DNA of 64,000 bases from Pyrinomonadaceae bacterium (GTDB lineage: Bacteria > Acidobacteriota > Blastocatellia > Pyrinomonadales > Pyrinomonadaceae), in NCBI GenBank assembly GCA_021228405.1, contig JAJQRF010000009.1, positions 124,001 to 188,000 on the forward strand, given 5' to 3'. This document shows positions 1,691 through 47,285 of this stretch, one piece after another. A program made the position numbers and the translations under genes. A model generated the notes under the pieces. It was given only the letters and a program-made list of their open reading frames with translations, made no database searches and had not been told where the DNA came from. Position 1 is the first letter of the stretch. The number at the start of each line of letters is the position of its first letter.

Positions 1691-3162
1691 TATCGCGGCG
1701 TGCGGCTGACGATGATCTGGTAAGCGCGCGTAAATTTATCGACGTATTCCGTATCGCCCTTCTTGTTAGGCGTTTTGCTGTTGTAGTTGCGCATTGCCGT
1801 CTGCCAGTCGAGCCAGCCCGTGATAAATTTTTCGAGATGCGCTTTTTGATATTTCAGTTCCGTTCCGACTTTCAAAACGGTCGTTTTCGTCATTCCGCTG
1901 GTATTTCTGATGATATTTTCGCTCGTCGTTTCCAATCTTTTCGCAATGTCGTCGAGTCCTTTGCGGTCGGTGTTTTGAATCTTATAGCTTAAAATCTGCG
2001 GATTATCGACAATTTCGCGCCAACCCACTTTCCCGTCGATGGCTTTTGTGTAGAGATAGGCAATGCCCGCCCTGATATTGTTTTTTCCCTTCACGTTCGT
2101 CTTGGTCTGAAGCTCCTGCCGCAGTTCGGGCGGCGTGATGAAATCGGAATTGTCCAAGCCTTCGCTGATGACCTTATAGCCGGGATCGGCTTCGTATCTG
2201 CCGATCTGCAACGGGAAATCCTTCCATTGCACGGCTTCCTTTGCCGGTCCCGACTGGATTTCCGTCCAGACCATCGCTTTAACGTAACGCCAATCGAGCG
2301 GGACGAACCCGGCGGTCGCGGCAAACTTATTATTATAATAGGTAACTTCTTTTTTGATGAGCTCGTCGTATTCGTTCCAGCGCGCATCTTCGAGCGACAT
2401 CCGGAAACGCGCATCGCTCATAAGCGGGTCGGCGTTGAACATCATTGCCCTGATCTGCATTCCGGCAAAATGGACTTTAATATCGATCTCCATTTCCGAG
2501 TTGGCGCGTTTGATAAACCACTCGGCGATCGTTTTATCCAGAACCCTGCCCGCCTTTTGCGTATTGAACCACGTGATCGAACCGCTGTCGAGCGGTTTAT
2601 TGTTGGTGATGACCGTGTTCGGCAAAACTTCGTTGAGGAGTTTTTCGGTGTATTTGGTTTCGACCGTCAGCAATGCTTCCCTGAGTTGTTTTAATTTCAG
2701 ATCGGAAGCGATCGCTTGCCCGAAAAGTTCAAACGTGCCGCCGAAATAATATGCCAGCGTGCGGCGCGCCTTTTCGGTCAGGCTCGGCAGTCCGTAAACT
2801 TTTTCGTAAAGACTGATGGCATATTCCAGCCTGGCGTTCGTAAAGTCGAGCAAACTCGTCGGCAGGTTTTGTTCGTTGACCAGTTCGACGAATTTGATGG
2901 TCGAGTAGGCTTGCATACATTCGTTGCAGTAGGCAGTCATTATCTCATCGACCTTCGGCAGTTTGCAGGTCACTTTTCTGCCTTTGATGTCGAGGTCGTA
3001 TTTGGAATCCTTAAATTTATAATTGACCATCGCATTCGGCAGAAGCGGAAATTGACCGAGATTTTCGGCAAGCGGAACGTAGTTTGCAAAACTTCGCGTG
3101 AGCAGAAAATCGCCTTGCCCGCCGGAGCTTCCCGAAAAATCGGCAGAGTGTTCGTTACCCAT
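1690..3162 (-). CDS. Lysozyme/transglycosylase-like protein with C-terminal LysM-like module
   Basis: 490 residues, no signal peptide. The middle region carries elements of a lysozyme-like fold: a helix with a candidate catalytic Glu (KAMVWTEIQSG, about residues 296-306), a PLQIG turn, and the helix NNIRAGIAYLYTKA (about 371-384). Residues about 395-450 are LysM-like (YKIQNTDRKGLDDIAKRL...VGTELKYQKAHLEK). This combination is known from cytoplasmically made muramidases of phages and contractile injection systems, which do not need a signal peptide, but no tail or sheath gene is visible here. It lies third in a minus-strand operon (4275 to 656). The function is inferred from motif order, not from a full domain match. 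Confidence 0.55.
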   Translation of the reverse strand: MGNEHSADFSGSSGGQGDFLLTRSFANYVPLAENLGQFPLLPNAMVNYKFKDSKYDLDIKGRKVTCKLPKVDEIMTAYCNECMQAYSTIKFVELVNEQNLPTSLLDFTNARLEYAISLYEKVYGLPSLTEKARRTLAYYFGGTFELFGQAIASDLKLKQLREALLTVETKYTEKLLNEVLPNTVITNNKPLDSGSITWFNTQKAGRVLDKTIAEWFIKRANSEMEIDIKVHFAGMQIRAMMFNADPLMSDARFRMSLEDARWNEYDELIKKEVTYYNNKFAATAGFVPLDWRYVKAMVWTEIQSGPAKEAVQWKDFPLQIGRYEADPGYKVISEGLDNSDFITPPELRQELQTKTNVKGKNNIRAGIAYLYTKAIDGKVGWREIVDNPQILSYKIQNTDRKGLDDIAKRLETTSENIIRNTSGMTKTTVLKVGTELKYQKAHLEKFITGWLDWQTAMRNYNSKTPNKKGDTEYVDKFTRAYQIIVSRTPR

Positions 3163-3251
3163 CTTTTATTACCTCTCAATAAAAAATCATTCTTCAGTGG
3201 AAGAGAGTTATCAATTATTCTTTTCACGCCTTTCAGGATGAGGCTTCAGGC

Positions 3252-3590
3252 TCAGTGCCAGGTAATCAAGCCCTTCGCGTCATACTTTAAAACGAGTTCG
3301 TGATCTTCCTGAAAAAGTCTTTTCTTGTGTGCCCTGATCGCGATCAGGTTTTCTTCGAGCAATTGTTCCTTGCGCACTTCGGCTTTATGTCTTTCAAAAT
3401 GCTCTTTCCAGTCTTTCATATATTCGTCCGAAATTTTCAGTTCCTTTTGAAATTTGAAGCAATAATTTATAAATTGCTCGGCGTAGAACATTGCCGTTCT
3501 GCGGTTGCCGTTTTCATACGCTTCCTCATACTTATGACAAAGCTCGTAAAAACCCGCCAGAATTTTTTTCATCTTTTTTGATATAGCCAT
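3252..3590 (-). CDS. Small charged helical protein, unknown function
   Basis: 112 residues from the ATG at 3590 (MAISKKMKKILAG), 13 bp downstream of the preceding gene; a longer frame reaches 3710 but overlaps that gene's end. The sequence is rich in Lys and Glu and predicted helical (YEEAYENGNRRTAMFYAEQF...EHFERHKAEVRKEQLLEEN). No family recognised. It sits between two genes of the same orientation and is presumably co-transcribed with the muramidase-like gene, so it may be an accessory or chaperone-like protein; that is only context. Confidence 0.6.
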   Translation of the reverse strand: MAISKKMKKILAGFYELCHKYEEAYENGNRRTAMFYAEQFINYCFKFQKELKISDEYMKDWKEHFERHKAEVRKEQLLEENLIAIRAHKKRLFQEDHELVLKYDAKGLITWH

Positions 3591-8224: not shown

Positions 8225-9412
8225 ATGAGCGAATATTCGATAGACACGAAACTTGTCCACGCGGGCGAAAGACGGCAAACGCCGACCGGAAAATCGGTTT
8301 CAACGCCGATTTATCCTTCGACGACTTACACTTACGATTCGATGGCGGAAATGGACAAGGTTTTTTCGGGCGAAGGCGGCGATTATGTTTATTCGCGCTA
8401 CGGCAACCCGACCGTCAATGCGTTGGAAGAAGCGGTTGCGGAGATCGAGAGCGGGAAATTTGCGGTCGCGTTTGCGTCGGGAATGGCGGCGATTCACGCG
8501 GCACTTTTTGCTTGCGAGCTTGCGCCGGATTCGGTCGTTCTGGCTTCGCAAGACCTTTACGGCGCGTCGTTCGATCTGCTGAAAAAGATTTTCGGAAGTT
8601 ACGGTGTGAAAACGAAGACGGCGGATTTTAACGACCTGAAAAATTTGCAAGCGCAGGTTGAAGAACTGAAACCGCGCGTTTTGCTGGCGGAAACCATCTC
8701 GAATCCGCTTTTGAAAATCTGCGATATTGAGGCGGTTGCCGGGATCGCACATTCAAACGGCGCGAAATTGGTCGTTGACAATACTTTTGCATCGCCGTTT
8801 TTGTGTCAGCCCGTTCGGTTCGGCGCGGATTTTTCAGTTCATTCGGCGACGAAATATCTGAGCGGACACGCCGACGCGACGGGCGGAATCGTGATCTCAA
8901 ACGACGAATTCGACAAACCGACGCTCGATGGAATAAAAAAACTCGTCGGCGGAGTCTTAAGTGTTTGGGAAGCGCATCAAATTTTGCGCGGCATCAAAAC
9001 GCTCGGACTCCGGCAGGAAAAACAATGCCGAAACGCGGCGGTTCTGGCGGAACATTTGTCGAAAAACGAATTTATCGAAAAGGTTTATTATCCGAATCTG
9101 GATGATAAAAAATCGGCGGATAAGGTTTTGAAAGACGATTTCGGCGGCGCGCTGGTTTCGATAAAGTTAAAAACCGACACGACGGATGCGGCTTGGAAAT
9201 TTATGGATTCGCTCAAACTCTGTGTTCGTGCGACGAGCCTCGGCGACGTTTACACGCTCGTTTCGCATTCGGCTTCGTCGTCGCACCGCGAACTTTCGCC
9301 GAAAAAACGCGCGAGTTTGGGAATTGCGGACAGTCTGGTGCGAATCTCGGTCGGCATCGAAGATGTGAAAGATTTGATCGCCGATATTGAACAGGCTCTT
9401 AAAAATGGATAA
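8225..9412 (+). CDS. Cys/Met metabolism PLP enzyme (cystathionine gamma-synthase/lyase family)
   Basis: 395 residues from the ATG at 8225; the frame is open to 8168 but that part lies in the leader. Family marks are YSRYGNPTVNALE (56-68), the PLP-binding AETISNPLLKI...VDNTFASP (155-191) and the PLP lysine Lys210 (SVHSATKYLSGH). The family covers cystathionine gamma-synthase, gamma-lyase and O-acetylhomoserine sulfhydrylase, which sequence alone does not separate here. The SAM-II-like leader favours a methionine-forming role; the adjacent cysteine synthase would also suit transsulfuration. The stop codon (TAA 9410-9412) lies inside a class A word repeat. Confidence 0.88.
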   Translation: MSEYSIDTKLVHAGERRQTPTGKSVSTPIYPSTTYTYDSMAEMDKVFSGEGGDYVYSRYGNPTVNALEEAVAEIESGKFAVAFASGMAAIHAALFACELAPDSVVLASQDLYGASFDLLKKIFGSYGVKTKTADFNDLKNLQAQVEELKPRVLLAETISNPLLKICDIEAVAGIAHSNGAKLVVDNTFASPFLCQPVRFGADFSVHSATKYLSGHADATGGIVISNDEFDKPTLDGIKKLVGGVLSVWEAHQILRGIKTLGLRQEKQCRNAAVLAEHLSKNEFIEKVYYPNLDDKKSADKVLKDDFGGALVSIKLKTDTTDAAWKFMDSLKLCVRATSLGDVYTLVSHSASSSHRELSPKKRASLGIADSLVRISVGIEDVKDLIADIEQALKNG

Positions 9413-9484
9413 TTGATAGTTGATAATGGATAGTGAAAAAACGAAATAAATTATCAATTATCCATTGTCAACTATCAATTAAAA
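9402..9484. repeat. Class A inverted word repeat (GATAATT/GATAGTT words)
   Basis: The left arm reiterates the 7-bp words GATAATT, GATAGTT and GATAATG from 9407; the right arm (9450-9481) is their inverse (TATCAATTATCCATT...AACTATCAATT). The element fills the spacer exactly, from the stop codon of the upstream gene to the ATG of the next, and would form a long hairpin in RNA. Confidence 0.8.
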
Positions 9485-12237: not shown

Positions 12238-12305
12238 CGGATTTTGGATTTTAGATTTTGGATTTTGGATTGGTTTTATTAAGCCTTTTCAAAATCCAAA
12301 ACTTT
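12238..12305. repeat. Class A word repeat (GGATTTTGGATTTT) between peroxiredoxin and sodX
   Basis: Left part reiterates GGATTTT with 7-bp spacing from 12240; the right part (about 12288-12303) is the inverse (TTCAAAATCCAAAAC). It lies between two convergent genes and starts two bases after the peroxiredoxin stop. Confidence 0.8.
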
Positions 12306-12316
12306 TAATAGGGAAA

Positions 12317-12664
12317 TCAAAATTTTTTTACTTTCGCTTCGATTTTCCCGAGAATATCTTTTCTTAAAATCGTGCCGAAACTGCGGCTGTCGGTGCTTTC
12401 GTTTGGATTGTCGCCAATCAGAAAATATCTGTTTTCGGCGGTGATTTCTTTAACTCGTTTGAGAATTTTGACGCTTTTTTTGAAAGGATGATCGGCAAGC
12501 ACGATGTCGCCTATTTTCGGGTCGAAATTGAGATTTATCAAAACGAGATCGCCGTTTTTCAAAATCGGAAGCATCGAATCGCCTTCGACGCGGAAAATTT
12601 TATGCTTTGAAAAACTTTTCGCGTTTTCTTCATTCAATTCAATTTCCGGCAATTCATTTTTCAT
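12317..12664 (-). CDS. sodX: Nickel superoxide dismutase maturation protease
   Basis: 115 residues from the ATG at 12664 (a TTG lies one codon upstream). S26 peptidase with Ser30 (VEGDSMLPIL) and Lys69 (ILKRVKEI), the strand GDIVLADHP and GDNPNESTDSRSFG near the C-terminus. Soluble and compact, as expected for SodX, which removes the leader of SodN so that the new N-terminal His can bind nickel. It directly follows sodN on the same strand, 70 bp away, with a hairpin-forming class A repeat between them. Confidence 0.88.
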   Translation of the reverse strand: MKNELPEIELNEENAKSFSKHKIFRVEGDSMLPILKNGDLVLINLNFDPKIGDIVLADHPFKKSVKILKRVKEITAENRYFLIGDNPNESTDSRSFGTILRKDILGKIEAKVKKF

Positions 12665-12669
12665 CAAAA

Positions 12670-12733
12670 ATAAAAAGCGGATCGCAGATTTTTAATAAAA
12701 TCCGCAATCCGCAATCCCAAATCCGAAATCGGT
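12670..12733. repeat. Class A hairpin between sodN and sodX
   Basis: On the minus strand, directly after the sodN TAG, the words CGGATTTGGGATTGCGGATT are followed by an AT turn, the inverse ATCTGCGATCCGC and a T-run. The structure could attenuate transcription from sodN into sodX or stabilise the sodN 3' end. Confidence 0.7.
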
Positions 12734-14704: not shown

Positions 14705-14706
14705 AA

Positions 14707-15213
14707 AAGTTTTCAGATAGTTTACAGGAAGTTGCAGGAAGTTTTCAGATAGTTTATTAGAAAGTTTGAGAGGATCTTTAAAAATTAGTTGTTTGTTGTT
14801 CTGAGATATTGAGCAAGCGATAACGTCATTCTCGAAATTTCGGTCAGAATTTGATAAAGTTCATCGAATTCTTTTTGATTTATATAACTTAAACCAAACG
14901 CGATGTGCAGATGTGATTGGACTTCGGCGGCTGAACCGCGTGCGATGTTCAAAAAATTCGCAAACTCCGTATTCGTTCTGCGCCCGTGTCCTTCGGCGAT
15001 GTTTGCCATAATTGAAACCGACGCTCGACGAATCTGGTCACGCAAGCCGAAATCTTTGGCAAATTTTTCTTCTGAAGTTATTTTGTAGATGAGCAAAGTT
15101 AAATCTTTAGCTTTTTGCCAAGCCTGAATTTCCTCGAATTTATTAAACTTAGCCATTTCCCAAAACTTCCTGCAACTATCTGTAACTTCCTGCAACTTTC
15201 TATAACTATTTTC
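14707..15213 (-). mobile_element. Inverted-arm element enclosing a four-helix-bundle gene (element 1)
   Basis: Left arm 14707-14767 and right arm 15159-15213 are inverse copies made of words such as GTTGCAGGAAGTT and CAGATAGTTTACAGGAAGTT. Between them lies a single ORF of the S23/four-helix-bundle family in the direction of the flanking genes. The right arm supplies the stop codon of the upstream thioesterase gene (15206-15208). An RNA of this region would fold into a long stem with the ORF in the loop, the plan of 23S rRNA intervening sequences. Mobility is inferred, not shown. Confidence 0.55.
14785..15156 (-). CDS. Four-helix-bundle (S23/Avd-like) protein
   Basis: 123 residues from the ATG at 15156 (MAKFNKFEEIQAWQKAKDL). 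The family hallmark DFGLRDQIRRASVSIMANIAEG (about 35-56) and ARGSAAEVQSHLHIA are present. Relatives are encoded within 23S rRNA intervening sequences, beside diversity-generating retroelements (Avd) and as orphans; they form basic oligomers that may bind nucleic acid. No reverse transcriptase lies in this window. The frame extends 20 codons upstream to 15216, but that part is encoded by the right arm. Function unknown. Confidence 0.88.
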   Translation of the reverse strand: MAKFNKFEEIQAWQKAKDLTLLIYKITSEEKFAKDFGLRDQIRRASVSIMANIAEGHGRRTNTEFANFLNIARGSAAEVQSHLHIAFGLSYINQKEFDELYQILTEISRMTLSLAQYLRTTNN

Positions 15214-16483: not shown

Positions 16484-16612
16484 AAGTTTCAGGTTTCAAG
16501 TTTCTAGTTTCAAGTTTGCAGAGTAAAATATCAAGTTTGCTGTTTCTGTCGCGTCAGAGCAGAGAGTTGGTTTTTATAACTTGAAACTAGAAACCTGAAA
16601 CTAGAAACCGAT
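16484..16612. repeat. Class A inverted repeat (GTTTCAGGTTTCAAGTTTC words)
   Basis: Left arm 16488-16520 (AAGTTTCAGGTTTCAAGTTT then CTAGTTTCAAG) and right arm about 16579-16611 (ACTTGAAACTAGAAACCTGA and onward) are inverse copies built from a 10-bp word. The element sits between divergent genes, so any promoters must lie in or beside it. Confidence 0.85.
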
Positions 16613-20497: not shown

Positions 20498-21510
20498 TCG
20501 AAAACGTTTTCGAGCAATTGCCGAAAACGTTTTTCATCTTCAAAAAATATCTCACTTTCAACCACAAAACACGGCAATTCAAACTTTACATTCTTCAATT
20601 TCACCGCATCCTTTGCCGTCGTCAGCAAAATTTGCGCACCGCTTTTCTTGGCGGAATTTTCAATTTCGGCGATGTCTTTCCGCGTATAAAAATGATGATC
20701 GGGAAATTTTTGCGCCGAAACGAGGTTGAAGTTTTCGCTTTTTAACTGCTCGAAAAAATTGTCGGGATTGCCTAAAGCGCAGAAAGCGAAAACGATTTGG
20801 GATTTGGGATTTGGGATTTGGGATTTTGTTTTTGCAGGGAAGTTTTTGAGGTCGGTCAGGTTCGAGATTTTATTGTTTGAAATGAAGACCGGACAATTCG
20901 TATATTTTGCTATTTCGATTTTTAAATCTTCGACTTTGTTCGATAAATTGGCGCGGGTGATGACTACCGCATCGGCGCGTTTCAGGTTTTCGAGCGGTTC
21001 GCGCAAAATTCCGAAAGGCAGTATTTTGCCGTTTCCGAAAGGGTTGGTGGCATCGACGCAGACAATGTTAAGATCGCGTTTCGCCTTTTGATGCTGAAAG
21101 GCATCGTCCAGAACAAAAGCCGACACGCCGAATTTTTCAACTGCAAATTTCGCCGCCGAAACGCGGTTCGCATCGGAAATTACGACTGCTTTTCCGCGTA
21201 ATTTATTCGCCAGTTCAAAAGGTTCGTCGCCCGCAAATGCGGCTTCGACGAGAACTTTTTCGCCGTCGGAAACCAAGACACGTGACTTCGGATTTTTACG
21301 CCCGTAACCGCGTGAAAGAATGCAAACCTTTTCGCCTTTTTCCGCCAAAATCTCGGCGACAAGCGCGACGAGCGGAGTTTTTCCCGTTCCGCCGACCGTG
21401 ATATTTCCGACGCTGACCGTTTTCGCGCCCAAAGAATGCGAAGCGAAAATCCCTTTTTCATAAAACGAGTTGCGCAAATTCTGAATTTTCCCGTAAAGAC
21501 GGTCGAGCAT
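20494..21510 (-). CDS. lpxK: Tetraacyldisaccharide 4'-kinase
   Basis: 338 residues. LpxK phosphorylates the 4' position of the lipid A disaccharide at the inner membrane. The P-loop GNITVGGTGKT (35-45) and ILSRGYGRK are typical, as is VFVLDDAFQHQKAKRDLNIV (approximate). Residues about 226-239 (KTKSQIPNPKSQI) are encoded by a class A word repeat at 20796-20832, just before the strand VFAFCALGNP; this region is a loop in the family. The presence of lpxK shows a lipid A outer membrane. Confidence 0.93.
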   Translation of the reverse strand: MLDRLYGKIQNLRNSFYEKGIFASHSLGAKTVSVGNITVGGTGKTPLVALVAEILAEKGEKVCILSRGYGRKNPKSRVLVSDGEKVLVEAAFAGDEPFELANKLRGKAVVISDANRVSAAKFAVEKFGVSAFVLDDAFQHQKAKRDLNIVCVDATNPFGNGKILPFGILREPLENLKRADAVVITRANLSNKVEDLKIEIAKYTNCPVFISNNKISNLTDLKNFPAKTKSQIPNPKSQIVFAFCALGNPDNFFEQLKSENFNLVSAQKFPDHHFYTRKDIAEIENSAKKSGAQILLTTAKDAVKLKNVKFELPCFVVESEIFFEDEKRFRQLLENVFD

Positions 21511-21513
21511 AGA

Positions 21514-21553
21514 TGGTTAATTGTAAATTGTAAATCGTTAATTGTTAATCGTG
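21514..21553. repeat. Class A left arm (GGTTAATTGTAAATTG words)
   Basis: Reiterated TTAATTGT/TAAATTGTAAAT words just upstream of the lpxK start. Its inverse lies at 21961-21991, overlapping the trpD stop codon. The two arms bracket the tandem array at 21607-21840. Confidence 0.75.
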
Positions 21554-21606
21554 TTTGCCCGAACTTTATTTTTGATTTTTTTGAAAAGATAAGTAATTTT
21601 CAGTTG

Positions 21607-21840
21607 ATATGAGCATCTGTCGGCACAATATGAGTATCTGTTACGCTATATGAGCATCTGTCAGAGTAATATGACCATCTGTCACGTGATATAAGTATCT
21701 GTCAAAGTAATATGAGTATCTGTCACATTATATGACCGTCTGTCAGACTGAGGAGAGCATCTGTCAGGTTTTTTCTGCATCTGTCAGGTTATATGAGCAT
21801 CTGTCAGATATTTTCCGCATCTGTCAGATGCTTGCCGAAA
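21607..21840. repeat. Class B tandem array, 20-21 bp period (ATATGAGCATCTGTCAG type)
   Basis: Eleven copies of the core (A/G)TCTGT(C/T) occur at a spacing of exactly 20 or 21 bp from 21617 to 21821. The 5' part of the unit switches between ATATGAGC, ATATGAGT, ATATGACC and TTTCTGC/TTTCCGC. No coding capacity. It lies about 100 bp upstream of lpxK. Confidence 0.85.
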
Positions 21841-21937
21841 CAATGAACATTGTCTGACTAATGCACAAAAAGAACGCAAAATGAATTTTTATAACTGTAT
21901 GGCTTGATCGCGCTTCCTTGATGTGTCGCAAAAAATA

Positions 21938-21991
21938 AAGCCGCAAAGTTACGGCTTCCTTTAACAATTAACCATTTACAATTAACCATTA
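21938..21991 (-). terminator. Terminator of the trp operon with class A right arm
   Basis: On the minus strand after trpD, AAGCCG (21957-21952) pairs with CGGCTT (21943-21938) and is followed by TATTTTTTG. The segment 21961-21991, between trpD and this hairpin, is the inverse of the class A arm at 21514-21553 and supplies the trpD stop codon TAA (21989-21991). Confidence 0.6.
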
Positions 21992-23080
21992 ACTTTTATT
22001 TTTATTCGTCGTTTGAATCAGTCTTTCGAGCTTATTTTGTGCCTGTCCGCTGTCGATGGATTGTTCGGCAAGCCGTGCGGCTTGCATCGGTTCGGGCGCA
22101 ACTCCGCCGACAACGAGCGCGGCGGCGGCATTTAGAACGATCAGGCTTCGCGCTTCGTCGCGGCGTTTACTGCTCAGAACGTCTTTAATAATTTGCGCGC
22201 TTTCATCTGCCGTTTTGACGTGCAGATGATCGATCTTTCCGCAATTCAAACCGAAATCTTCGGGCGCAATGCGAAATTCGGTGATCTTGTTTCCCGTGAT
22301 CTCGGCAACGTAAGTTTCACCCGTCAAAGTCATTTCGTCCAAACCGTCCGACCCGTGAACGATCCAGGTTTTTTCGGTTCCGAGCAAAGCGATCGCTTGC
22401 GCCATCGGCTCGAAAAGCGACGGGTGCCAAACGCCGATCAATTGTTTCGGTGCCTTTGCGGGATTTGCCATCACTCCGAGCAGATTCAGACAACTGCGAA
22501 TGCCGAGCGCACGGCGAATGTCGCCGACGCGCTGTAAGGTCGGATGAAATTTCGGCGCGAACATAAAGCAAAGTCCCGTTCCGTTCAGCAGGGTCTGGGC
22601 AAATTCGGGTTCGCCTGAAATTTTAACGCCGAGTTTGGCGAGAACGTCCGCACTTCCCGATTGGCTCATCACGGCGCGGCTCGAATGTTTGGCGACGGCA
22701 AGACCTGCTCCCGCTGCGACGAAAGCCGTGGCGGTCGAAACGTTAAAGGTTTTCGCCGCGCTCGAACCCGTTCCGCAGGTGTCGATAAAATTTTTGTGAC
22801 GCGATTTGATCCTGATCGTTTGTTCGCGCATCACCCGCGCCATTCCTGCCAGTTCGGTAAACGTTTCGCCCTTTGCGGTCAAAGCGACGAGGCAACCTGC
22901 GATCTGGGCTGGATTGGCGTTAAAATCCGTCATCGCACGAAAAAAAACGGCAGCTTCTTCTTCCGTAAAGTCTTCTCCGCGCATCAATTTACCCAGAAAC
23001 GGAAAAAGCGGCGAGTCCGCTTTACTGTTCGTGGCGGACATCGGCGCGGAAAGCAGCCATTCTGTTTTAGACATCAACAT
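21989..23080 (-). CDS. trpD: Anthranilate phosphoribosyltransferase
   Basis: 363 residues. Transfers phosphoribose from PRPP to anthranilate, the second committed step of tryptophan synthesis. The signature loops are FIDTCGTGSSAAKTFNVSTA and KHSSRAVMSQSGSADVL; most relatives have GTGGD and KHGNR, so this is a divergent variant, though the PRPP-binding frame is kept. Start taken as the first ATG; MSKTE two codons later is equally possible. It lies 118 bp behind trpG. Stop codon and following bases come from a class A arm. Confidence 0.93.
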   Translation of the reverse strand: MLMSKTEWLLSAPMSATNSKADSPLFPFLGKLMRGEDFTEEEAAVFFRAMTDFNANPAQIAGCLVALTAKGETFTELAGMARVMREQTIRIKSRHKNFIDTCGTGSSAAKTFNVSTATAFVAAGAGLAVAKHSSRAVMSQSGSADVLAKLGVKISGEPEFAQTLLNGTGLCFMFAPKFHPTLQRVGDIRRALGIRSCLNLLGVMANPAKAPKQLIGVWHPSLFEPMAQAIALLGTEKTWIVHGSDGLDEMTLTGETYVAEITGNKITEFRIAPEDFGLNCGKIDHLHVKTADESAQIIKDVLSSKRRDEARSLIVLNAAAALVVGGVAPEPMQAARLAEQSIDSGQAQNKLERLIQTTNKNKS

Positions 23081-23198: not shown

Positions 23199-23765
23199 TC
23201 AAAGTTCGAGGAAGTTTTGCAAGAGTTTTTTGCCTTCGGTCGTTAAAATCGATTCGGGATGAAACTGCACTCCTTCGATCTTGAACTCTTTATGACGCAA
23301 GCCCATTATCAAACCGTCGGGCGAAGTTGCCGAAATTTCGAGGCATTCAGGCAAAGATTCGCGTTCGACGACGAGCGAATGATAACGCGCCGCGCGGAAA
23401 CGGTAAGTCAGGTCTTTGAAGATGGTTTTCCCGTCGTGGCAGATTTCGACGGGTTTCCCGTGCACGGGCGCAGGGGCGCGGACGACTTTGCCGCCGAAAA
23501 TCTGACCGATTGCCTGATGACCGAGACAAACTCCCAGAATCGGCGTTTTCGTGTCGGGATTTTTCAGAATGTCGAGCGAAACGCCCGCCTCGTCAGGCGT
23601 TCCCGGTCCGGGCGAGATCAGGATTTTTTCGGGCTGTAAATCTTTTTCGATTTCCGAAAGCGTAATTTCGTCATTGCGAAAAACACACATTTTCGCGCCG
23701 AGCTCGCCCAAATATTGAACGAGGTTGTATGTGAACGAATCGTAATTATCTATAACTAAAAGCAT
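23199..23765 (-). CDS. trpG: Anthranilate synthase / aminodeoxychorismate synthase glutamine amidotransferase subunit
   Basis: 188 residues, class I glutamine amidotransferase. Catalytic Cys80 ([12 protein letters not shown]) with the His/Glu pair in [10 protein letters not shown], and the oxyanion segment [11 protein letters not shown] (51-61). It releases ammonia from glutamine for TrpE and may also serve PabB for folate. Its usual neighbour trpE is separated from it here by a four-helix-bundle element of about 430 bp. Confidence 0.93.
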
Positions 23766-24195
23766 AAATTCTGTAGATAGTAGATAGGAGTTGGTAGTTA
23801 ATTTTTTATGTTCTTGTTTTGAATTGCACGGATATAACTGCCGAGCATTTTACTTATTTCGTTTGCGTCCGCCAATAGTTTAGTCGAATCGCCAAACTGT
23901 AAGTCTTTCGCAAGAATCAGATAATAACGAGATTCTTCCAATGAGCCTTGCGAAATATTATAAAATCGAACTTTATCCGCCAAACTCAACTTCCTGAAAC
24001 CTTCGGCGAAATTTGCCGGAACTGAAACTGCCGATCTTCGCAGTTGAGAAATTAAGCCGAATATTTCCTGCTTCGGAAAGTTTTCAGTGAATTTGTAAAT
24101 CGCCAAAACCCACAAATGCGCTTTCTTCCACAACTCCACATCCTCAAAATTTTGCGAATACATATCTTCTCCTATCTATTCGCTCCTATCTACTA
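23766..24195 (-). mobile_element. Inverted-arm element enclosing a four-helix-bundle gene (element 2)
   Basis: Left arm 23771-23800 (CTGTAGATAGTAGATAGGAG...) and right arm 24165-24195 (TCTCCTATCTATTCGCTCCT...) are inverse copies sharing AGTAGATAGGAG exactly. The ORF lies between them, in the direction of trpE and trpG. The right arm starts at the trpE stop codon TAG (24193-24195), and the ORF's own stop lies in the left arm. Its design matches element 1 but with unrelated arm words. Confidence 0.6.
23798..24163 (-). CDS. Four-helix-bundle (S23/Avd-like) protein inside the trp operon
   Basis: 121 residues ([34 protein letters not shown]). Family hallmark [22 protein letters not shown] (about 41-62) and [18 protein letters not shown]. 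It has no role in tryptophan synthesis that I know of; its place between trpE and trpG, inside inverted arms, points to insertion. It is only distantly similar to the copy at 14785-15156, so the two are not a recent duplication. Confidence 0.88.
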
Positions 24196-25695
24196 AAAGT
24201 CTTCCGCCATTTCAATCGCCTTGACGAGGGCGCGGGCTTTGTTGATCGTTTCTTCGTATTCCTTTTCCGGGACGGAATCGGCGACTACGCCTGCGCCGGC
24301 TTGGATCGAAGCTTCTTTATTTTCGAGCCGGATCGTGCGGATCGCAATGCAGGTGTCGAGATTTTCGGCATAATCGATGTAGCCGATCGCGCCTGCATAA
24401 ACTCCGCGCGGTGTCGGTTCGAGTTCGTCGATTATCTGCATTGCCCGAACTTTCGGCGCGCCTGAAACCGTTCCCGCCGGAAAACACGCGCCGAGCGCGT
24501 CGAAACGGTCGTTTTCGTCCTTCAAACGCGAAGTCAGACTCGTGACCAAATGCTGAACGTGCGAATATTTTTCGATCTTCATCAGTTCCGCGACTTCGAC
24601 CGAACCGAATTCGGAAACACGTCCGAGATCGTTTCTGCCGAGATCGACGAGCATTATGTGTTCGGAAATTTCCTTCATATCCGAACGCAAATCTTCGCCC
24701 AAAATCCAATCTTCCGTTTCGGTCGCGCCGCGCGTCCGCGTTCCTGCGATCGGGCGATATTCAAGTTTTTTGCCGTGACAGCGAACGAGCATTTCGGGCG
24801 ACGCGCCGATCAGCGTTTCCGCGCCGAGTTTGATGTAGAACATATACGGCGAAGGATTTGTCGTCCTCAGCGCGCGGTAGATATTGATCGCTTCGGCGGA
24901 AGTTTGCCGTTTGAATTTCTGCGACAGCACGACCTGATAAGCGTCGCCCGCGAGGATGTGATCCTTGATTTTTTCGACGGCTTCGAGAAAATCGTTTTTC
25001 AGCCAATTCGATGAAAACTGATGCGATTTTTCGCGCTTTTCGGCGTTGATCGAATGCGGGATCGGCAAACTGTTTTCCTGTAAAAGCTGTTCGAGCCGTT
25101 CGGTTTCTTCGCAGGCTTCGTCGTAGAGAATCCGCAGTTTTGCTTCGTCGCCGTTCGCTTCATCGGTAAAAACGACCGAAACGAGTTCGATGCGCTGTTT
25201 CAGGCGATCGAAAACGAGAATGTTTCTGAAAAACATCCACACGGCTTCATCGGTTTCGGGCGTTTTCCCGTTTGCGAGGGCTTTTTCAAACCAACGCGCC
25301 GAATCGTAGGCGAAAAATCCGACTGCGCCTCCGCAGAGCGGCGGCAGATGCGGTCGGCGGGCGAGCTTATTTTTGCCGAAATATTCGCGTAGATATTCGA
25401 TCAGATTCGTATCGGCAAGCGTTTCCGTTGCGCCGTTTCTTTCAACCAACGTTTGCGAATTGCGCGAACGAACCGTCATCCACGGATTTGCCGCGAGAAA
25501 CGAATAACGCGCGAGCTTTTCGCCGCCTTCGATCGATTCAAGCAGAAAAGACTGTTCGGCATTGCCCGCAATCCGCAAAAACGCGCCGACGGGCGTATGC
25601 AAATCCGCCAAAACACTGCGCACGACGGGAACGACGTTGCCCTTTTGCGCCGCTTCCAGAAACTCTTCAAATGTATCAGGTGAAAACTCGATCAT
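24193..25695 (-). CDS. trpE: Anthranilate synthase component I
   Basis: 500 residues. Converts chorismate and ammonia to anthranilate with TrpG. The chorismate-binding core is clear: GDAYQVVLSQKFKR, IGASPEMLVRCHGKKLEYRPIAGTRTRG, LVDLGRNDLGRVS, FPAGTVSGAPKVRAMQII and IQAGAGVVADSVPEKEYEE. The N-terminal part has the regulatory ESIEGGEKLARYSFL motif near residue 52, a site of tryptophan feedback in the family. No Trp-codon leader is visible upstream; instead a 21-bp array begins about 190 bp before the ATG. Confidence 0.95.
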   Translation of the reverse strand: MIEFSPDTFEEFLEAAQKGNVVPVVRSVLADLHTPVGAFLRIAGNAEQSFLLESIEGGEKLARYSFLAANPWMTVRSRNSQTLVERNGATETLADTNLIEYLREYFGKNKLARRPHLPPLCGGAVGFFAYDSARWFEKALANGKTPETDEAVWMFFRNILVFDRLKQRIELVSVVFTDEANGDEAKLRILYDEACEETERLEQLLQENSLPIPHSINAEKREKSHQFSSNWLKNDFLEAVEKIKDHILAGDAYQVVLSQKFKRQTSAEAINIYRALRTTNPSPYMFYIKLGAETLIGASPEMLVRCHGKKLEYRPIAGTRTRGATETEDWILGEDLRSDMKEISEHIMLVDLGRNDLGRVSEFGSVEVAELMKIEKYSHVQHLVTSLTSRLKDENDRFDALGACFPAGTVSGAPKVRAMQIIDELEPTPRGVYAGAIGYIDYAENLDTCIAIRTIRLENKEASIQAGAGVVADSVPEKEYEETINKARALVKAIEMAEDF

Positions 25696-25880: not shown

Positions 25881-26215
25881 GGGGAAACGCCGCACTTTCA
25901 AGTATCAGCTTGATACTTTAGAGTGTGGACTTGATACCCGAAAGAGGAAACCCCACACTTTCAAGTATCAGCTTGATACTTGAAAGTGTGGGCTTGATAC
26001 TTGAAAGTATCAGCTTGATACCTGAAAGTGTGGGCTTGATACCTGAAAGTGTGGGCTTGATACTTGAAAGTATCAGCTTGATACCTGAAAGTGTGGGCTT
26101 GATACCTGAAAGTGTGACGACCACACTCTCAAGAAGAAAATTTCTACCTGTGAGTATGGGCTTGATACTTTTGAGTGAGAAATTTACTGTCGAAAGATGA
26201 AAACGGGTATCAAAA
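25881..26215. repeat. Class B tandem array, exact 21-bp period (GTGTGGGCTTGATACCTGAAA type)
   Basis: About 16 units in strict 21-bp phase from 25881. Two unit types, beginning GTATCA or GTGTGG, share GCTTGATAC and end TTGAAA or CTGAAA in different combinations. ORFs on both strands across it are a by-product of the 21-bp phase. It occupies the spacer between the divergent trpE and the secreted-protein gene at 26415; the remaining bases are AT-rich. Confidence 0.9.
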
Positions 26216-26414
26216 GACACTTCAAATATCTCAAGAACCGGGTTGAGTTTCATTTTCAGAAAATTATTGCCGGAGTTTTGCTCCTTTCAGGCGGGACTCT
26301 AAGTGTTTGCACCGATTTTTGAGGCATCTTTATAATAAAAACTAACGCAATTTATTTACTAATTTGCGTTCTGCCTTTACTATTGATTCAGCAGAATCAG
26401 GAGTCATTCTACTA

Positions 26415-28931: not shown

Positions 28932-29630
28932 ATGATCGAATCCAGAATCCGGAATCCGGAATCCAGAATCGCGGTCGTGCTTGTTTCCGGCGGAATGGAT
29001 TCGTGCGCGACTTCGGCAATTGCGAAGGCAGAAAACGATAAAGTTGCATTTCTGCATATTTCATACGGTCAACGAACCGAAACGCGTGAAAGAAAGGCAT
29101 TTAACGATATTGCCGATTTTTACGGCGTGGAAAATCGGCTTGATATTTCAATCGAATACCTGGCAAAAATCGGCGGTTCGAGTTTGACCGATAAAACGAT
29201 GGAAGTGACCGAAGCCGATTTGGAATCGAAGGAAGTTCCGACGAGTTACGTGCCGTTTCGTAATGCGAATATGCTTTCGATTGCGACGAGTTGGGCGGAA
29301 GTTCTCGGTGCGAACGCAATTTATATCGGTGCGGTTGCGGAAGACTCAAGCGGTTATCCCGATTGCCGACCTGAATTTTATGCGGCGTTTGAGAAAACCA
29401 TCGAAACGGGCACAAAACCCGAAACGAAAATCTCGATAAAAACGCCGATCATCAACCTTTCAAAGGCAGAGATCGTGCAAAAGGGAATCGAATTGAATGC
29501 GCCGCTTCATCTTTCGTGGTCGTGTTATCGAAGCGAAGATTTCGCCTGCGGAACGTGCGATTCGTGCGCTTTGCGTCTGCGCGGGTTTGAACGTGCGGGC
29601 GTAAAAGACCCGATTTCCTACAAATCTTAA
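28932..29630 (+). CDS. queC: 7-cyano-7-deazaguanine synthase
   Basis: 232 residues from the ATG at 28932 (a TTG one codon earlier is possible). It makes preQ0 from the QueE product using ATP and ammonia. PP-loop SGGMDS at 19-24 and four zinc cysteines at 198, 206, 209 and 212 (SWSCYRSEDFACGTCDSC). Residues 2-13 (IESRIRNPESRI) are encoded by a class A word repeat (28937-28972) and stand before the first strand AVVLVSGG, so the repeat provides the N-terminus. Confidence 0.93.
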   Translation: MIESRIRNPESRIAVVLVSGGMDSCATSAIAKAENDKVAFLHISYGQRTETRERKAFNDIADFYGVENRLDISIEYLAKIGGSSLTDKTMEVTEADLESKEVPTSYVPFRNANMLSIATSWAEVLGANAIYIGAVAEDSSGYPDCRPEFYAAFEKTIETGTKPETKISIKTPIINLSKAEIVQKGIELNAPLHLSWSCYRSEDFACGTCDSCALRLRGFERAGVKDPISYKS

Positions 29631-35284: not shown

Positions 35285-35641
35285 GAACTCAACGGGCGAA
35301 ACGATGCGTTCATCCGTCGAACGGCAACTTTCCGCGAACCGACAGACGAACTCAACCGCCCGACGGACGAAGCCATCCGATGCGCGGATGAGTTCATCCG
35401 ATGGACAGACGAAGCCAACCTATCGACGGATGAGCGCAACCGATCAAAGGATGAACTCCGCGAAGCGGCGGATGAACTCAACCAATGAACAGACGAAGCC
35501 ATCCGATGCGCGGATGAACTCATCCGATGAACAGACGAAGCCATCCGATGCGCGGATGAACTCATCCGGTGAACGGTTGCGTTCCCCCGTCATCGCGGGG
35601 GAACGCAACCGTTCATCGGGGGAAGTTTCAGGTATGCAATA
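35285..35641. repeat. Class B tandem array, exact 21-bp period (GAACTCATCCGATGAACGGAT type)
   Basis: About 17 units in strict 21-bp phase from 35285. Each unit combines an opening (GAACTC, GAAGCC, GAGTTC, GCGTTC), A(T/A)CCG, a middle (ATGCGC, ATGAAC, ATGGAC) and an ending (GGAT, AGAC), reused in different combinations. The last units turn into an inverse (GTTCCCCCGTCATCGCGGGG and GGAACGCAACCG). It lies 76 bp upstream of the M14 gene and also upstream of the divergent OPT gene. Confidence 0.9.
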
Positions 35642-43370: not shown

Positions 43371-46300
43371 TCTTCCAATTGCTCTGGCGATATTGTCTGC
43401 AAGTCATCATGACCGAGAACTTTTCTCAAAAACCAAATCACACCGTCCGCTTTTATTTCTTTGGACATTTTAAACTCGTGTTCGATAGACGCATCAATGC
43501 CCGTCAGACATGCGAACGGCAAGCCGACTTTTAATTTTAATTTCGTATCGGAAGAATATTTAGCTTTATTGACTGCCTCGATTTGTTCTGCCGAAAGTTT
43601 GTTTTCCTTAACAAGCTTTTCATCGATCAGCGTGAAAAATTCATCGGTCAAATTTTTCAATTCGGCTGATTGCGTTTCGTTCAGCTTTTCAAACATCTCG
43701 TCCAGCTTTTTATATATCGCCTCGAAATTGTCTGATTGTTTGACCAGATTTTTGACCGTTGAATTTTTGATATTTGAATCAATAATGACGTTTCCGTTGA
43801 TGTCTGAAATATTGAATACATTTGATTCTTTGTTTTCCATAGTTTCTGCAATGATATAAATGTCTTTCAGCAATTCTTTGATCGGAATATCTTCATAACT
43901 TTTACGGCATTCAATAGTGTGCTTTTTTCTTTTAAGCCTGTCTTGAAGCTCGAACAATTTATATGGTTCTAATTCCAAACTCTTTCTTTCGTTCTCGTTT
44001 AGATTTTTTAATTCAGGTTCGGACAATGATTCAAACTTTCCTTTCAGTTCCTTGCATTTGGCGCAGGTGCAGGGCACAAACTCATCAAATTTCAGACGGT
44101 TTTCAAACCAATCTCTGTCAATTCCATGTATCTCGTTTCTGATTATCGTGAGAAGCTCCTTGTTGTGAACGATATTTTCGCCGATCACTCTGATCGTGAT
44201 TTGTTTCGATTGGTCGCGTTCGACGACTTCGGCGATCGAATCGTGATGACTGAGCAAAACGCCTTTGTTCCAGACGATTTGTTTGTCGTCTATTGAAACG
44301 ATGTTTTTGTGAAGCCTGACGATAAGGCGCGGAACGATGCCTTTCGGCATAAACTTGAATAGAAACTCGGTGCGGATTTCGTTCATTTCTTCGAGTCTGT
44401 AATCTTTTTCAGGTTTATACGGCAAAAGAATCGGCACGATAAATTCGTTATCATTTATCTTGTAAGCAATTTCAAATTTTCCCTTCTGCATCAATCCGAG
44501 CAAAAGGTCGCAATCCTTCAAACTGTAGCCTTCCTTTTGCCACAATTCTTCGACATAATCCACTTTGAATCTGCCGTGGTCTTTCTCGATCTTGTTATCC
44601 TGCAAAACAACATAAAGCGAATCGATCACCCAATTCGGTTTGAGAATAAATTTGTTCCGCAGATTTATGTCCGTCTTATAATTCAGCGCAATGCCGAGAT
44701 CGTGCAGGTAATCTCTTAATTGTTCCTGATAATCTTTATTCGTCAGCTTGAAACTATTACAGATTTCCAGAAACCTGTCTTTTTCGATATAAGCATTTTT
44801 ATCTTTTAATCTTTCGATTTCCTTGCGGACATCGACCCATTTTTTCGGAAGCGGCGAACCGATCTGTTTCAAATTTGAGGTTTTTAGATGGATTTTGTTT
44901 TTCAGCGTTTCAAATCTGCCGTCTTCGTCCGTGTAAAAATTAACGCTTTCTTCTTCGATACATTCCAAATGTTCGCCGAATTGTTCTCTGAATTCGGTAA
45001 TATTAAAAGTCTTCACGGGTTTTCCGCCATTTTCGTTCAGCACGACCAAAACGGGACAATCTCTGCCGAGCGTGGCGATGATCTCGAACCAGTAATTAAA
45101 ATTCGGCAATTCTTTTCTGCCGTCTGCCAACAGCACATAGAGCGAACGTTCGGTAAAGAAATATTGATGCAGAACATACTGAATATCCTGCCCGCCGAAA
45201 TCCCAGAAGTGCGCGGTGATTTCCTTGCTTTTGTCCTTGTGATACGGAATCGGTATTTTAGCGATCTCGATCCCGACGGTCTGCACCGAATCTTTCCCCT
45301 TCATTCCCTTAACCCATTTTTCATTGTCTATTATCTTTTGGGTCAAAGTGGTTTTTCCCGCTTTTGGTTCACCGACAACCAAAACCTTGGCTTCAAAAAT
45401 TAATTCCTGTTTTTCTTTTAACTGTATGTAGTAATTAACTATTTGATCTATCTCATCTCTATTTAATGAAGCAAATTCACCTTTATCTTTGATCATTTTC
45501 TTGAGATTTTTCGGTATTTCCAGATTAGAATTTCCATAAATCTGAAGCGAAGTTAAGTTTTGCAAATCTTCGAGGAAATCTGCATCTGATAGATTATTGC
45601 CGCTTAAATCAAGCAAAGATAACTTTGTCAGTTCTTTGAGAAAATCCGCACTCCATAACTTATTATTTCTTAAATCAAGCAAAGACAATTTTGTCAGCTC
45701 TTTGAGGAAATCCGCATTCGATAAATTGTTGCCGCTTAAATCAAGCGAAGATAAGTTTGTCAGCTCTTTAAGAAAATCATAATTTGATAACTTATTGTTT
45801 CTTAAATTAAGCGAAGATAAGTTTATTAGTTCCTTGAGGAAATCTGCATTCCATAATCTATTGTCACCTAGATCGAGCGAAGACAATTTTGTCAGCTCTT
45901 TGAGGAAATCCGCATTCGATAAATTGTTGTCACCTAAATCAAGCGAAGATAAGTTTGTCAGTTCTTTGAGAAAATTCGCATTCGATAAATTGTTGTCACC
46001 TAAATCAAGCGAAGATAGGTTTGTCAGTTCCTTGAGAAAATTATAATTCAGTAAATTATTGCCGCGTAAATCAAGCGAAGATAAGTTTGTCAGCTCTTTA
46101 AGAAAATCATAATTTAATAAATTATTGTAACTCAAATCAAGGAAAGACAATTTTGTCAGCTCTTTAAGAAAATCATAATTTAGTAAATTATTATTTCTTA
46201 AATCAAGCGAAGATAAATTTGTCAGCTCTTTAAGAAAATCATAATTTAACAACTTATTGTTTCTTAAATTAAGCGAAGATAAGTTTATTAGTTCTTTGAG

Positions 46301-46750
46301 GAAATCTGCATTCCATAACTTATTGTCACCTAAATCGAGCGAAGATAAATTAATTAGTTCTTTGAGAAAATTTGCATCCCGCAAATTATTGTTTCTTAAA
46401 TCGAGCGAAGATAAATTAATTAGTTTGGCGATTATTTTATAATCAGGTAATCTCGATGATCGTAATTTGAGCTTTTGTAAATGAACAAAATCTTGCAGAA
46501 AGTCAGATTCTAAAAGTAGCAAACTCGTAAAATCCAAAGCCAAACCTGTGATGTTTCCGTCTTTATTAATACTGTAATTTCTTACACCTTTATAAGGAAA
46601 ATTGGGACTCAATCGGTGGAAAAACGAATAACTTGCAAAATTAGATTTTGCAATGAAAGAGTTTTCGGTAAAAAGATTTTCGAGGCTGACTTCGTTCAGC
46701 TTGATGCCGAGTGTTTTTTCGATATGTTTGATGCGTTCGAGATCGGTCAT
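43367..46750 (-). CDS. LRR-Roc-COR (Roco) GTPase protein
   Basis: 1127 residues. Order: N-terminal region (1-95); about 13 very similar 22-residue leucine-rich repeats plus degenerate flanks (about 100-420) of the form TNLSSLDLRNNNLLNYDFLKEL-like; Roc GTPase with P-loop VVGEPKAGKTT (about 455) and DxxG in FWDFGGQD; COR domain, with a cysteine cluster VPCTCAKCKEL...IECRKS near 905-965; then a C-terminal part with NGNVIIDSNIKNSTVKN and helices. Roco proteins are dimeric GTPases; in bacteria several act as sensors and some LRR-NTPases protect against phage. Its spacers carry a 21-bp array and class A arms on both sides. Confidence 0.93.
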   Translation of the reverse strand: MTDLERIKHIEKTLGIKLNEVSLENLFTENSFIAKSNFASYSFFHRLSPNFPYKGVRNYSINKDGNITGLALDFTSLLLLESDFLQDFVHLQKLKLRSSRLPDYKIIAKLINLSSLDLRNNNLRDANFLKELINLSSLDLGDNKLWNADFLKELINLSSLNLRNNKLLNYDFLKELTNLSSLDLRNNNLLNYDFLKELTKLSFLDLSYNNLLNYDFLKELTNLSSLDLRGNNLLNYNFLKELTNLSSLDLGDNNLSNANFLKELTNLSSLDLGDNNLSNADFLKELTKLSSLDLGDNRLWNADFLKELINLSSLNLRNNKLSNYDFLKELTNLSSLDLSGNNLSNADFLKELTKLSLLDLRNNKLWSADFLKELTKLSLLDLSGNNLSDADFLEDLQNLTSLQIYGNSNLEIPKNLKKMIKDKGEFASLNRDEIDQIVNYYIQLKEKQELIFEAKVLVVGEPKAGKTTLTQKIIDNEKWVKGMKGKDSVQTVGIEIAKIPIPYHKDKSKEITAHFWDFGGQDIQYVLHQYFFTERSLYVLLADGRKELPNFNYWFEIIATLGRDCPVLVVLNENGGKPVKTFNITEFREQFGEHLECIEEESVNFYTDEDGRFETLKNKIHLKTSNLKQIGSPLPKKWVDVRKEIERLKDKNAYIEKDRFLEICNSFKLTNKDYQEQLRDYLHDLGIALNYKTDINLRNKFILKPNWVIDSLYVVLQDNKIEKDHGRFKVDYVEELWQKEGYSLKDCDLLLGLMQKGKFEIAYKINDNEFIVPILLPYKPEKDYRLEEMNEIRTEFLFKFMPKGIVPRLIVRLHKNIVSIDDKQIVWNKGVLLSHHDSIAEVVERDQSKQITIRVIGENIVHNKELLTIIRNEIHGIDRDWFENRLKFDEFVPCTCAKCKELKGKFESLSEPELKNLNENERKSLELEPYKLFELQDRLKRKKHTIECRKSYEDIPIKELLKDIYIIAETMENKESNVFNISDINGNVIIDSNIKNSTVKNLVKQSDNFEAIYKKLDEMFEKLNETQSAELKNLTDEFFTLIDEKLVKENKLSAEQIEAVNKAKYSSDTKLKLKVGLPFACLTGIDASIEHEFKMSKEIKADGVIWFLRKVLGHDDLQTISPEQLED
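45560..46440 (-). repeat. 66-bp tandem repeats coding the LRR domain
   Basis: At least 13 tandem units of 66 bp (22 residues) with high DNA identity. Variable positions are concentrated after DL (RNN, GDN, SGN, SYN, RGN) and after the second L (LNYD, SNAD, WNAD, SDAD). The same variants recur in different combinations, which suggests duplication and gene conversion within the gene. Confidence 0.85.
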
Positions 46751-47231: not shown

Positions 47232-47285
47232 CAATGGTTAATGGTTAATTGTCTTTCACAATTAACCATTAACCATTAACCATTA
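47232..47285. repeat. Class A inverted repeat (GGTTAATGGTTAATTG words)
   Basis: Left arm ATGGTTAATGGTTAATTG (47235-47252) and right arm CAATTAACCATTAACCATTA with one more CCATT form a hairpin. Read on the minus strand the right arm begins with TAA, the stop codon of the S9 peptidase (47283-47285). The same words form the arms around 21514 and 21961-21991. Confidence 0.85.

Follow-up and report, generated by a model that had tools for sequence, protein, structure and literature searches.

A trpE-trpG insert best read as an intervening-sequence element outside rRNA, with relatives at operon junctions of many bacteria

Introduction

The 23S rRNA of Coxiella contains an intervening sequence (IVS) of 428 nt with a 28-bp terminal stem and tandem heptamers before an S23p ORF, and this IVS is excised by RNase III (PMC4990558). 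According to the passages of that report drawn on here, its authors hold expression of the S23p protein to be improbable, mobility of IVSs was proposed in 1993, related IVSs with an S23p ORF occur in Leptospira and Brucella, and the Xanthomonas S23p protein is a homopentamer of four-helix bundles (PMC4990558). S23p, also called IVP, is a protein without known function. To our knowledge no catalytic motif has been recognized in it.

Cyanobacterial STRRs are heptanucleotide repeats that are intergenic and arranged in tandem. In the RAYT/REP and REPIN systems a gene is flanked by hairpins and gene-less hairpins occur elsewhere. The elements described here share that arrangement, but their protein is unrelated and their hairpins are built of tandem words. 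Avd, a protein of diversity-generating retroelements, forms a five-fold assembly and works with a reverse transcriptase. Homology between Avd and PF05635, the family of 23S rRNA-intervening sequence proteins (IVP/S23p), has been noted (PMC10053308). TAACTGA heptanucleotide repeats are mainly direct repeats, and the portion of the report used here names no gene between them (PMC4679880). An IVP gene between cmr3 and cmr2 of a cyanobacterium is mentioned in one of PMC4679880, PMC11270868, PMC2700814, PMC10053308, PMC4990558, PMC3936711 and PMC10910872. In the portions of the open-access literature that we covered, we found no earlier description of an IVP gene lying outside rRNA between paired heptamer arms.

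Here we describe an insert between trpE and trpG in the window, by which we mean the whole 64,000-nucleotide stretch of Pyrinomonadaceae DNA that was analysed. Like the 23S rRNA IVS as portrayed in the passages cited above (PMC4990558), the insert is ~430 nt long, carries one S23p/IVP ORF between complementary termini, and has heptamers before the ORF, which lies in sense with the host transcript. Unlike the rRNA IVSs, the trp element and other IVP elements sit at protein-gene junctions in many copies per genome, with different words and ORF-less hairpin kin, and they are known here from sequence alone. They resemble bacterial heptanucleotide repeats, as far as these are described in the same portion of PMC4679880, in having intergenic tandem heptamers near start codons and a patchy distribution across phyla, and differ from the TAACTGA repeats in that IVP arrays are paired in inverse orientation and accompany an IVP gene.

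Results

The insert extends from the TAG of trpE to the last base before the trpG ATG (Table 1), and thus lies between two protein genes and not inside a 23S rRNA gene. Its ORF matched PF05635 with 112.7 bits against a curated cut-off of 33.8, and an AlphaFold2 model of the protein (pLDDT 94.1) has four helices. The top Foldseek match of this model, a four-helix bundle like Xcc0516, was 2gsc, with a TM of up to 0.87. An earlier note had described a 121-residue four-helix-bundle ORF between trpE and trpG, and the coordinates, the family match and the model all bear this out. Avd (4dwl, 8ube) has the same four-helix fold (TM 0.73-0.75, Foldseek), whereas its identity to the trp IVP is only 10-12%. 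The single ORF of the element being a PF05635 protein, no Y1 transposase is present.

Table 1. Coordinates of the trp insert, element 1 and further hairpins in the window
Feature	Position	Strand	Remarks
trpE (anthranilate synthase component I)	24193-25695	-	PF00425, PF04715; upstream host gene
trpG (glutamine amidotransferase)	23199-23765	-	PF00117; downstream host gene
Whole element, trpE-trpG	23766-24195	-	430 bp including the trpE stop codon
IVP/S23p protein, 121 aa, four-helix bundle	23798-24163	-	PF05635, E 1.2e-32
5' arm	24183-24195	-	exact inverse word TAGTAGATAGGAG; leading TAG is the trpE stop
Extra 5' copy AATAGATAGGAG	24169-24180	-	same side as the 5' arm
3' arm, period-7 repeat	23773-23797	-	GTAGATA on the + strand at 23773-23787
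Element 1 IVP ORF	14785-15156	-	likely start MAKF; listed open frame to 15216; PF05635, E 1.1e-38
Element 1 5' arm	15164-15207	-	period 10, AGTTGCAG-type words
Element 1 3' arm	14706-14767	-	period 10
Inverse heptamer pair without IVP	21513-21993	.	arms 21513-21552 and 21961-21993; 20- to 21-bp repeats inside
ORF-less heptamer hairpin	16486-16608	.	arms 16486-16517 and 16578-16608
ORF-less heptamer hairpin	47233-47285	.	
ORF-less heptamer hairpin	9404-9481	.	both arms in one array (by eye)

Each arm is an array of tandem words that recur about every 7 nt; the words differ from element to element and are complementary within each element. An exact inverse of the trp 5' arm (TAGTAGATAGGAG) was found at 23778-23790. 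The arms therefore do share an inverse word as the earlier note had it, with a length of 13 nt instead of 12, and its placing of one arm at the trpE TAG also stands, as the first three bases of that arm are the trpE stop. An inverse match of 13 nt was reached by none of 5000 shuffles and at none of 19,693 window positions of the same geometry. The gapped local score of the arms is borderline on its own (26, where the shuffles have their 99% point at 25 and reach 27 at most), and folding of the insert RNA gave a z of -2.58. Complementary termini around an S23p ORF, a trait of 23S rRNA IVSs, are thus present in the trp insert.

Element 1 has the period 10 and different words, and its protein is 33% identical to the trp protein with both belonging to PF05635, in agreement with the earlier view that the arm words of the two are unrelated and their proteins only distantly similar. 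The host genome gave 12 PF05635 matches, corresponding to about 11 copies, since one broken copy accounts for two matches and one match falls short of the cut-off. The inverse score of the flanks exceeded the 99% point of their own shuffles in 10 of these 12 rows, the exceptions being L005 and L009. Word arrays are visible by eye at both, and the 3' array of L009 extends into the end of its ORF.

Period-7 arrays are numerous in the window. Across 400 kb of the host genome, 31 arrays were found at period 7, with 0-6 for each of the remaining periods between 4 and 15; one shuffle of the same 400 kb yielded no arrays. An inverse partner outscored a direct one for 12 of 14 window arrays and a direct partner won once, and for the 38 arrays of the 400 kb the corresponding counts were 26 and 9. 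Array lengths in the host cluster at 30-33 nt (27/60). A layout of five 5-nt cores with 2-nt spacers, fitted to a pentameric ring, was rejected, as the two variable phases were neighbours in just 21 of the 72 arrays, close to the chance level.

Other repeats were also observed in the window. An inverse heptamer pair (GGATTTT / AATCCGC words) at 12239-12730 surrounds a minus-strand ORF of 115 aa that by eye resembles an S24/LexA-type peptidase, not an IVP, and is possibly other cargo. Heptamer arrays of 33 nt lie in frame within lpxK- and queC-like frames (by eye) at 20794-20826 and 28938-28970, with the peptides KSQIPNPKSQI and ESRIRNPESRI. Tandem arrays of 21, 42, 63, 66 and 126 bp occupy 25883-26168, 35331-35574 and 45545-46414. 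No resemblance to the arms was noticed in them, and the one at 25883-26168 lies mostly within a 111-codon open frame (25918-26253).

A PF05635 match was present in 59 of 78 genomes of the class. The class set comprised 98 loci, 96 of them usable: 9 of the host (L010-L012 excluded), 29 others, and 60 further rows from the top of a score-ranked list, in which four rows were skipped, three with an internal stop. For each locus the upstream flank was compared with the reverse complement of the downstream flank, and mismatched loci served as the control. The median score was 42 versus 16 for mismatched flanks, with 88 of 96 loci above the 95% point of the control and 45 above the 99% point. A wider scan of species genomes took the best 80 of 560 loci (79 usable) from Planctomycetota, Chloroflexota, Pseudomonadota, Bacteroidota and others, together with Acidobacteriota including some class members; the score was beyond the 95% point in 62 of these 79 and beyond the 99% point in 40. 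The flanks of 8/96 class and 17/79 wider loci (best 80 of 560) were not above the 95% point. With about 11 copies in the host and inverse flanks above the 95% control at 88/96 and 62/79 loci, the earlier idea of a general element class is supported.

The IVP loci have further regularities, in which the wider counts refer throughout to the best 80 of 560 loci. G outnumbers C in the 5' arm at 77/88 class and 59/62 wider loci. Arrays of period 7-10 occur in either flank at 92/96 class and 73/79 wider loci, and in both 200-nt flanks at 72/96 and 50/79. By crude ORF calls, the IVP gene is in sense with the upstream gene at 80 of 86 class and 49 of 60 wider callable loci; both neighbours are sense at 67 class loci versus both antisense at 3 (wider, 33 versus 7), and no more than 12 nt separate the upstream stop from the start of the 5' arm at 61/80 class and 33/49 wider loci. 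A need for the host transcript would account for the sense bias, whereas avoidance of gene damage accounts for the place only. At a single site dN/dS could be measured, with values of 0.06-0.11 for three ortholog pairs, the other 50 pairs having dS of at least 1.5 or being saturated; the ORF is under purifying selection at this one testable site. At one orthologous element (L069 compared with L068) an 87-bp deletion has removed the 5' arm while the protein is unchanged, providing a natural arm-less control. No relative of the one IVP protein used as query was found in viral contigs. A plasmid search matched 12 records; of the five listed, three are IVP genes from cyanobacteria and two are from E. 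coli, one of these matching over trpE. Searches of Rfam returned nothing at gathering score in six sources.

The terminal repeats are often alike within protein subfamilies and unrelated between them. Proteins with the motif YRQLIAWQK go with GTGGTCA words, and those with xFEDIxAWQKAR often with AGTCTxGGA. Between genera, with homologous flanks removed, protein identity correlated with arm similarity (rho 0.208, 3154 pairs, p 0.0003 in a Mantel test; permutation maximum 0.125, reverse-complement control -0.06). Same-genus pairs at unrelated sites gave a rho of 0.244 (p 0.0007), and the wider set (best 80 of 560, flanks not compared) a rho of 0.178 (p 0.0005, control 0.01). The correlation was absent among same-genome pairs (rho 0.05, 124 pairs, not significant), and some close proteins, such as L045 and L221 with 71% identity, have unlike arms all the same (similarity 0.24). 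Of the eight proteins most similar to the trp IVP, L278, L250 and L270 are accompanied by GTAGTC-type words, to be compared with GTAGATA at the trp element, and the remaining five by AGAA-, GAAG- or AAAATC-type words. Because words track the protein subfamily across genera at non-homologous sites, we could show by sequence comparison that ORF and arms travel as one unit, present at unrelated sites of separate genera. Such a correlation would also result if ORF and arms were simply inherited together, so it does not prove that the protein recognizes the words. Homologous flanking genes were seen for 53 locus pairs, on both sides in 47 and on one side in 6, and some elements are old, with some loci being one and the same site.

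Single junctions were compared among species. The junction occupied by L042 was searched in 41 genomes of its genus, and the 30 loci listed come from 30 species. Five of these 30 have 2-4 bp, 23 have ORF-less inserts of 43-90 bp, and two have an IVP, namely its own genome G060 and G084. Nineteen of the 23 ORF-less inserts fold above all 50 shuffles, with more G than C in the 5' arm of 13 and the reverse in 6. Their words vary from species to species, with several sets common to two or more; L103, L109 and L113 are plain palindromes by eye, and no target-site duplication was evident by eye at this junction. At pdhA-pdhB, 24 loci of relatives and host include six gaps of 8-17 bp, other loci with ORF-less hairpins of differing words, and an IVP in the host and G016. 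The IVP set contains further pdhA-pdhB junctions with an IVP in G052, G076 and G088, the last with another subfamily and other words, and a profile search found no IVP in three long pdhA-pdhB gaps (561-936 bp). These comparisons show single junctions of the class in empty, ORF-less hairpin or IVP-element states.

Empty and filled states of one site, a trait of insertion sequences and MITEs, were seen at the L042 and pdhA-pdhB junctions and not at the trp junction. Among 28 trpE loci in 26 relatives, trpG was within 300 bp at 9 and at 816-1216 bp at 6, and 13 had no trpG within the stretch examined. The description of trpE and trpG as normally adjacent therefore applies to 9 of 28 loci, trpG being more distant or not seen at the others. 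A profile search found no IVP between trpE and trpG at any of these 28 loci, nor was an exact empty site for the trp element found among them. An ancestral trpE-ORF-trpG order throughout the relatives, which the earlier note had named as evidence against its reading, was accordingly not seen. Of 27 loci examined, 7 have a hairpin within 180 nt of the trpE stop. At L014 (G016) and L015 (G013), from the two closest relatives, a gene that by eye is ankyrin-repeat-like separates trpE and trpG. At one of the 28 loci (L037, in G024 of another family) an independent IVP of another subfamily (3135-3476) directly follows trpE and is followed by a gene other than trpG. It has period-7 words on both sides (by eye, ATTTGCG/ATTTGCA) that by eye equal those of the host copy L012, whose protein it also resembles.

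The ORF-less arrays in a sample of the host genome were compared with the arms of the host's own elements (ten, element 1 being excluded). The mean match of 52 such arrays was 32.7. Phase-permuted arms gave 24.0, with a maximum of 27.7 over 40 draws, and foreign arms gave 19.7, with a maximum of 24.2. These array matches are not independent, since the two arms of a hairpin were counted as two arrays and 15 of the 24 best matches point to one element, L009. Heptamer hairpins were also counted in samples of 41 genomes, uncorrected for phylogeny and GC. None was found in 13 of 13 IVP-free genomes (22-40 kb each) or in 7 genomes with 1-2 IVP genes, and the 21 genomes with at least 4 had a mean of 3.6 per 100 kb (Spearman 0.57 over the 41 genomes, phylogeny uncorrected). 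Nine of these 21 had no heptamer hairpin in ~40 kb and six had no period-7 array in ~40 kb, among them G013, G060 and G085 with 13-17 IVP genes.

A reverse transcriptase was rejected as the partner of the IVP: the counts of the two are uncorrelated (rho 0.06), and of the 40 genomes with 5 or more IVP genes 22 lack one. The host genome has no PF00078 (reverse transcriptase) match, so that a reverse transcriptase is not needed by presence. Genes for Y1 transposases are present in 6-21 copies in 37 of the 40 genomes with at least 5 IVP genes. Those at L201-L219 are single-domain genes, mostly with inverse REP-like palindromes, and L212 has a AGTTGCAG-type array upstream.

Discussion

Since a published 23S rRNA IVS has the same build, we conclude that the trp insert is best read as an IVS element outside rRNA, belonging to a multi-copy element of operon junctions. 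We consider it probable that an IVS-type hairpin element, in which inverse arrays of short tandem words enclose an IVP/S23p gene, makes up the insert and operates by the mechanism proposed below. The results go beyond the earlier note in a known protein family, tandem-repeat arms, numerous ORF-less hairpins, and words that track the protein subfamily. Additionally, the recurrence of such loci at gene borders in many bacteria, with different words, suggests a widespread mobile hairpin element.

In the mechanism that we propose, the host transcript would serve as the message for the IVP. The protein may, like Xcc0516, assemble into a ring of five bundles and in this form recognize the words of its own arms as an RNA hairpin or as single-stranded DNA. 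By analogy with the 23S rRNA IVS, RNase III would cut the stem in the trp transcript, which would separate the trpE and trpG messages with little harm to the host. The IVP may further aid the copying or moving of the hairpin ends, with ORF-less hairpins as its dependants.

Other explanations were weighed against this one. The arms might be self-made, with slippage expanding the words, template switching at quasi-palindromes keeping them complementary, and the IVP a passenger without a role in spread. Such a process would fit the abundance of ORF-less hairpins, the variation of words by species at the L042 junction, and the clustering of host array lengths at 30-33 nt (27/60), as a bounded mutational process might yield. 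We nevertheless regard it as unlikely, since it does not lead one to expect words that agree with the IVP subfamily at non-homologous sites of different genera, ORF-less host arrays that resemble the host's own IVP arms, 13 of 13 sampled IVP-free genomes (22-40 kb each) without a heptamer hairpin, or complementarity kept across an ORF of ~370 nt.

Two further explanations appear weaker still. A device serving the host, in which the hairpin insulates or cleaves the trpE-trpG transcript and sets the ratio of its products, the IVP is an RNA-binding regulator, and structure rather than sequence is kept, would be in keeping with the strong sense bias, with purifying selection on the ORF at the sole testable site, and with occupation of the L042 junction in 25 of the 30 species listed. 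It is difficult to reconcile with the same junctions being empty in sister species, with the many unrelated gene pairs that elements occupy, and with the finding that no examined relative has an IVP between trpE and trpG, and we consider it quite improbable. The least likely of all, with very little in our judgement to recommend it, is that the genome's Y1 (RAYT-like) transposases move the hairpins as REP-type palindromes, the IVP being incidental. Copy numbers of Y1_Tnp and IVP do correlate over 78 genomes (rho 0.70), and inverse flanks alone do not set IVP genes apart, being present at 14 of 19 Y1 genes. Those flanks are plain palindromes, however; an array of period 7-10 occurs in either flank of only 3 of the 19 Y1 genes and in both flanks of none, and six IVP-free genomes carry 4-13 Y1 genes.

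A broader hypothesis can be put forward, to which we give slightly less than an even chance. IVP/S23p proteins may be the specificity factors of a bacterial class of miniature hairpin mobile elements found in many phyla, each subfamily reading its own word; ORF-less heptamer hairpins, perhaps including the known cyanobacterial and other heptanucleotide repeats, would be their dependants, and the rRNA IVSs a special case. If elements that have their own recognition words and leave ORF-less hairpins behind are common at operon junctions, the function of the IVP becomes testable by binding and by RNA ends, and some of the intergenic heptamer repeats that lack an explanation would acquire a driver gene.
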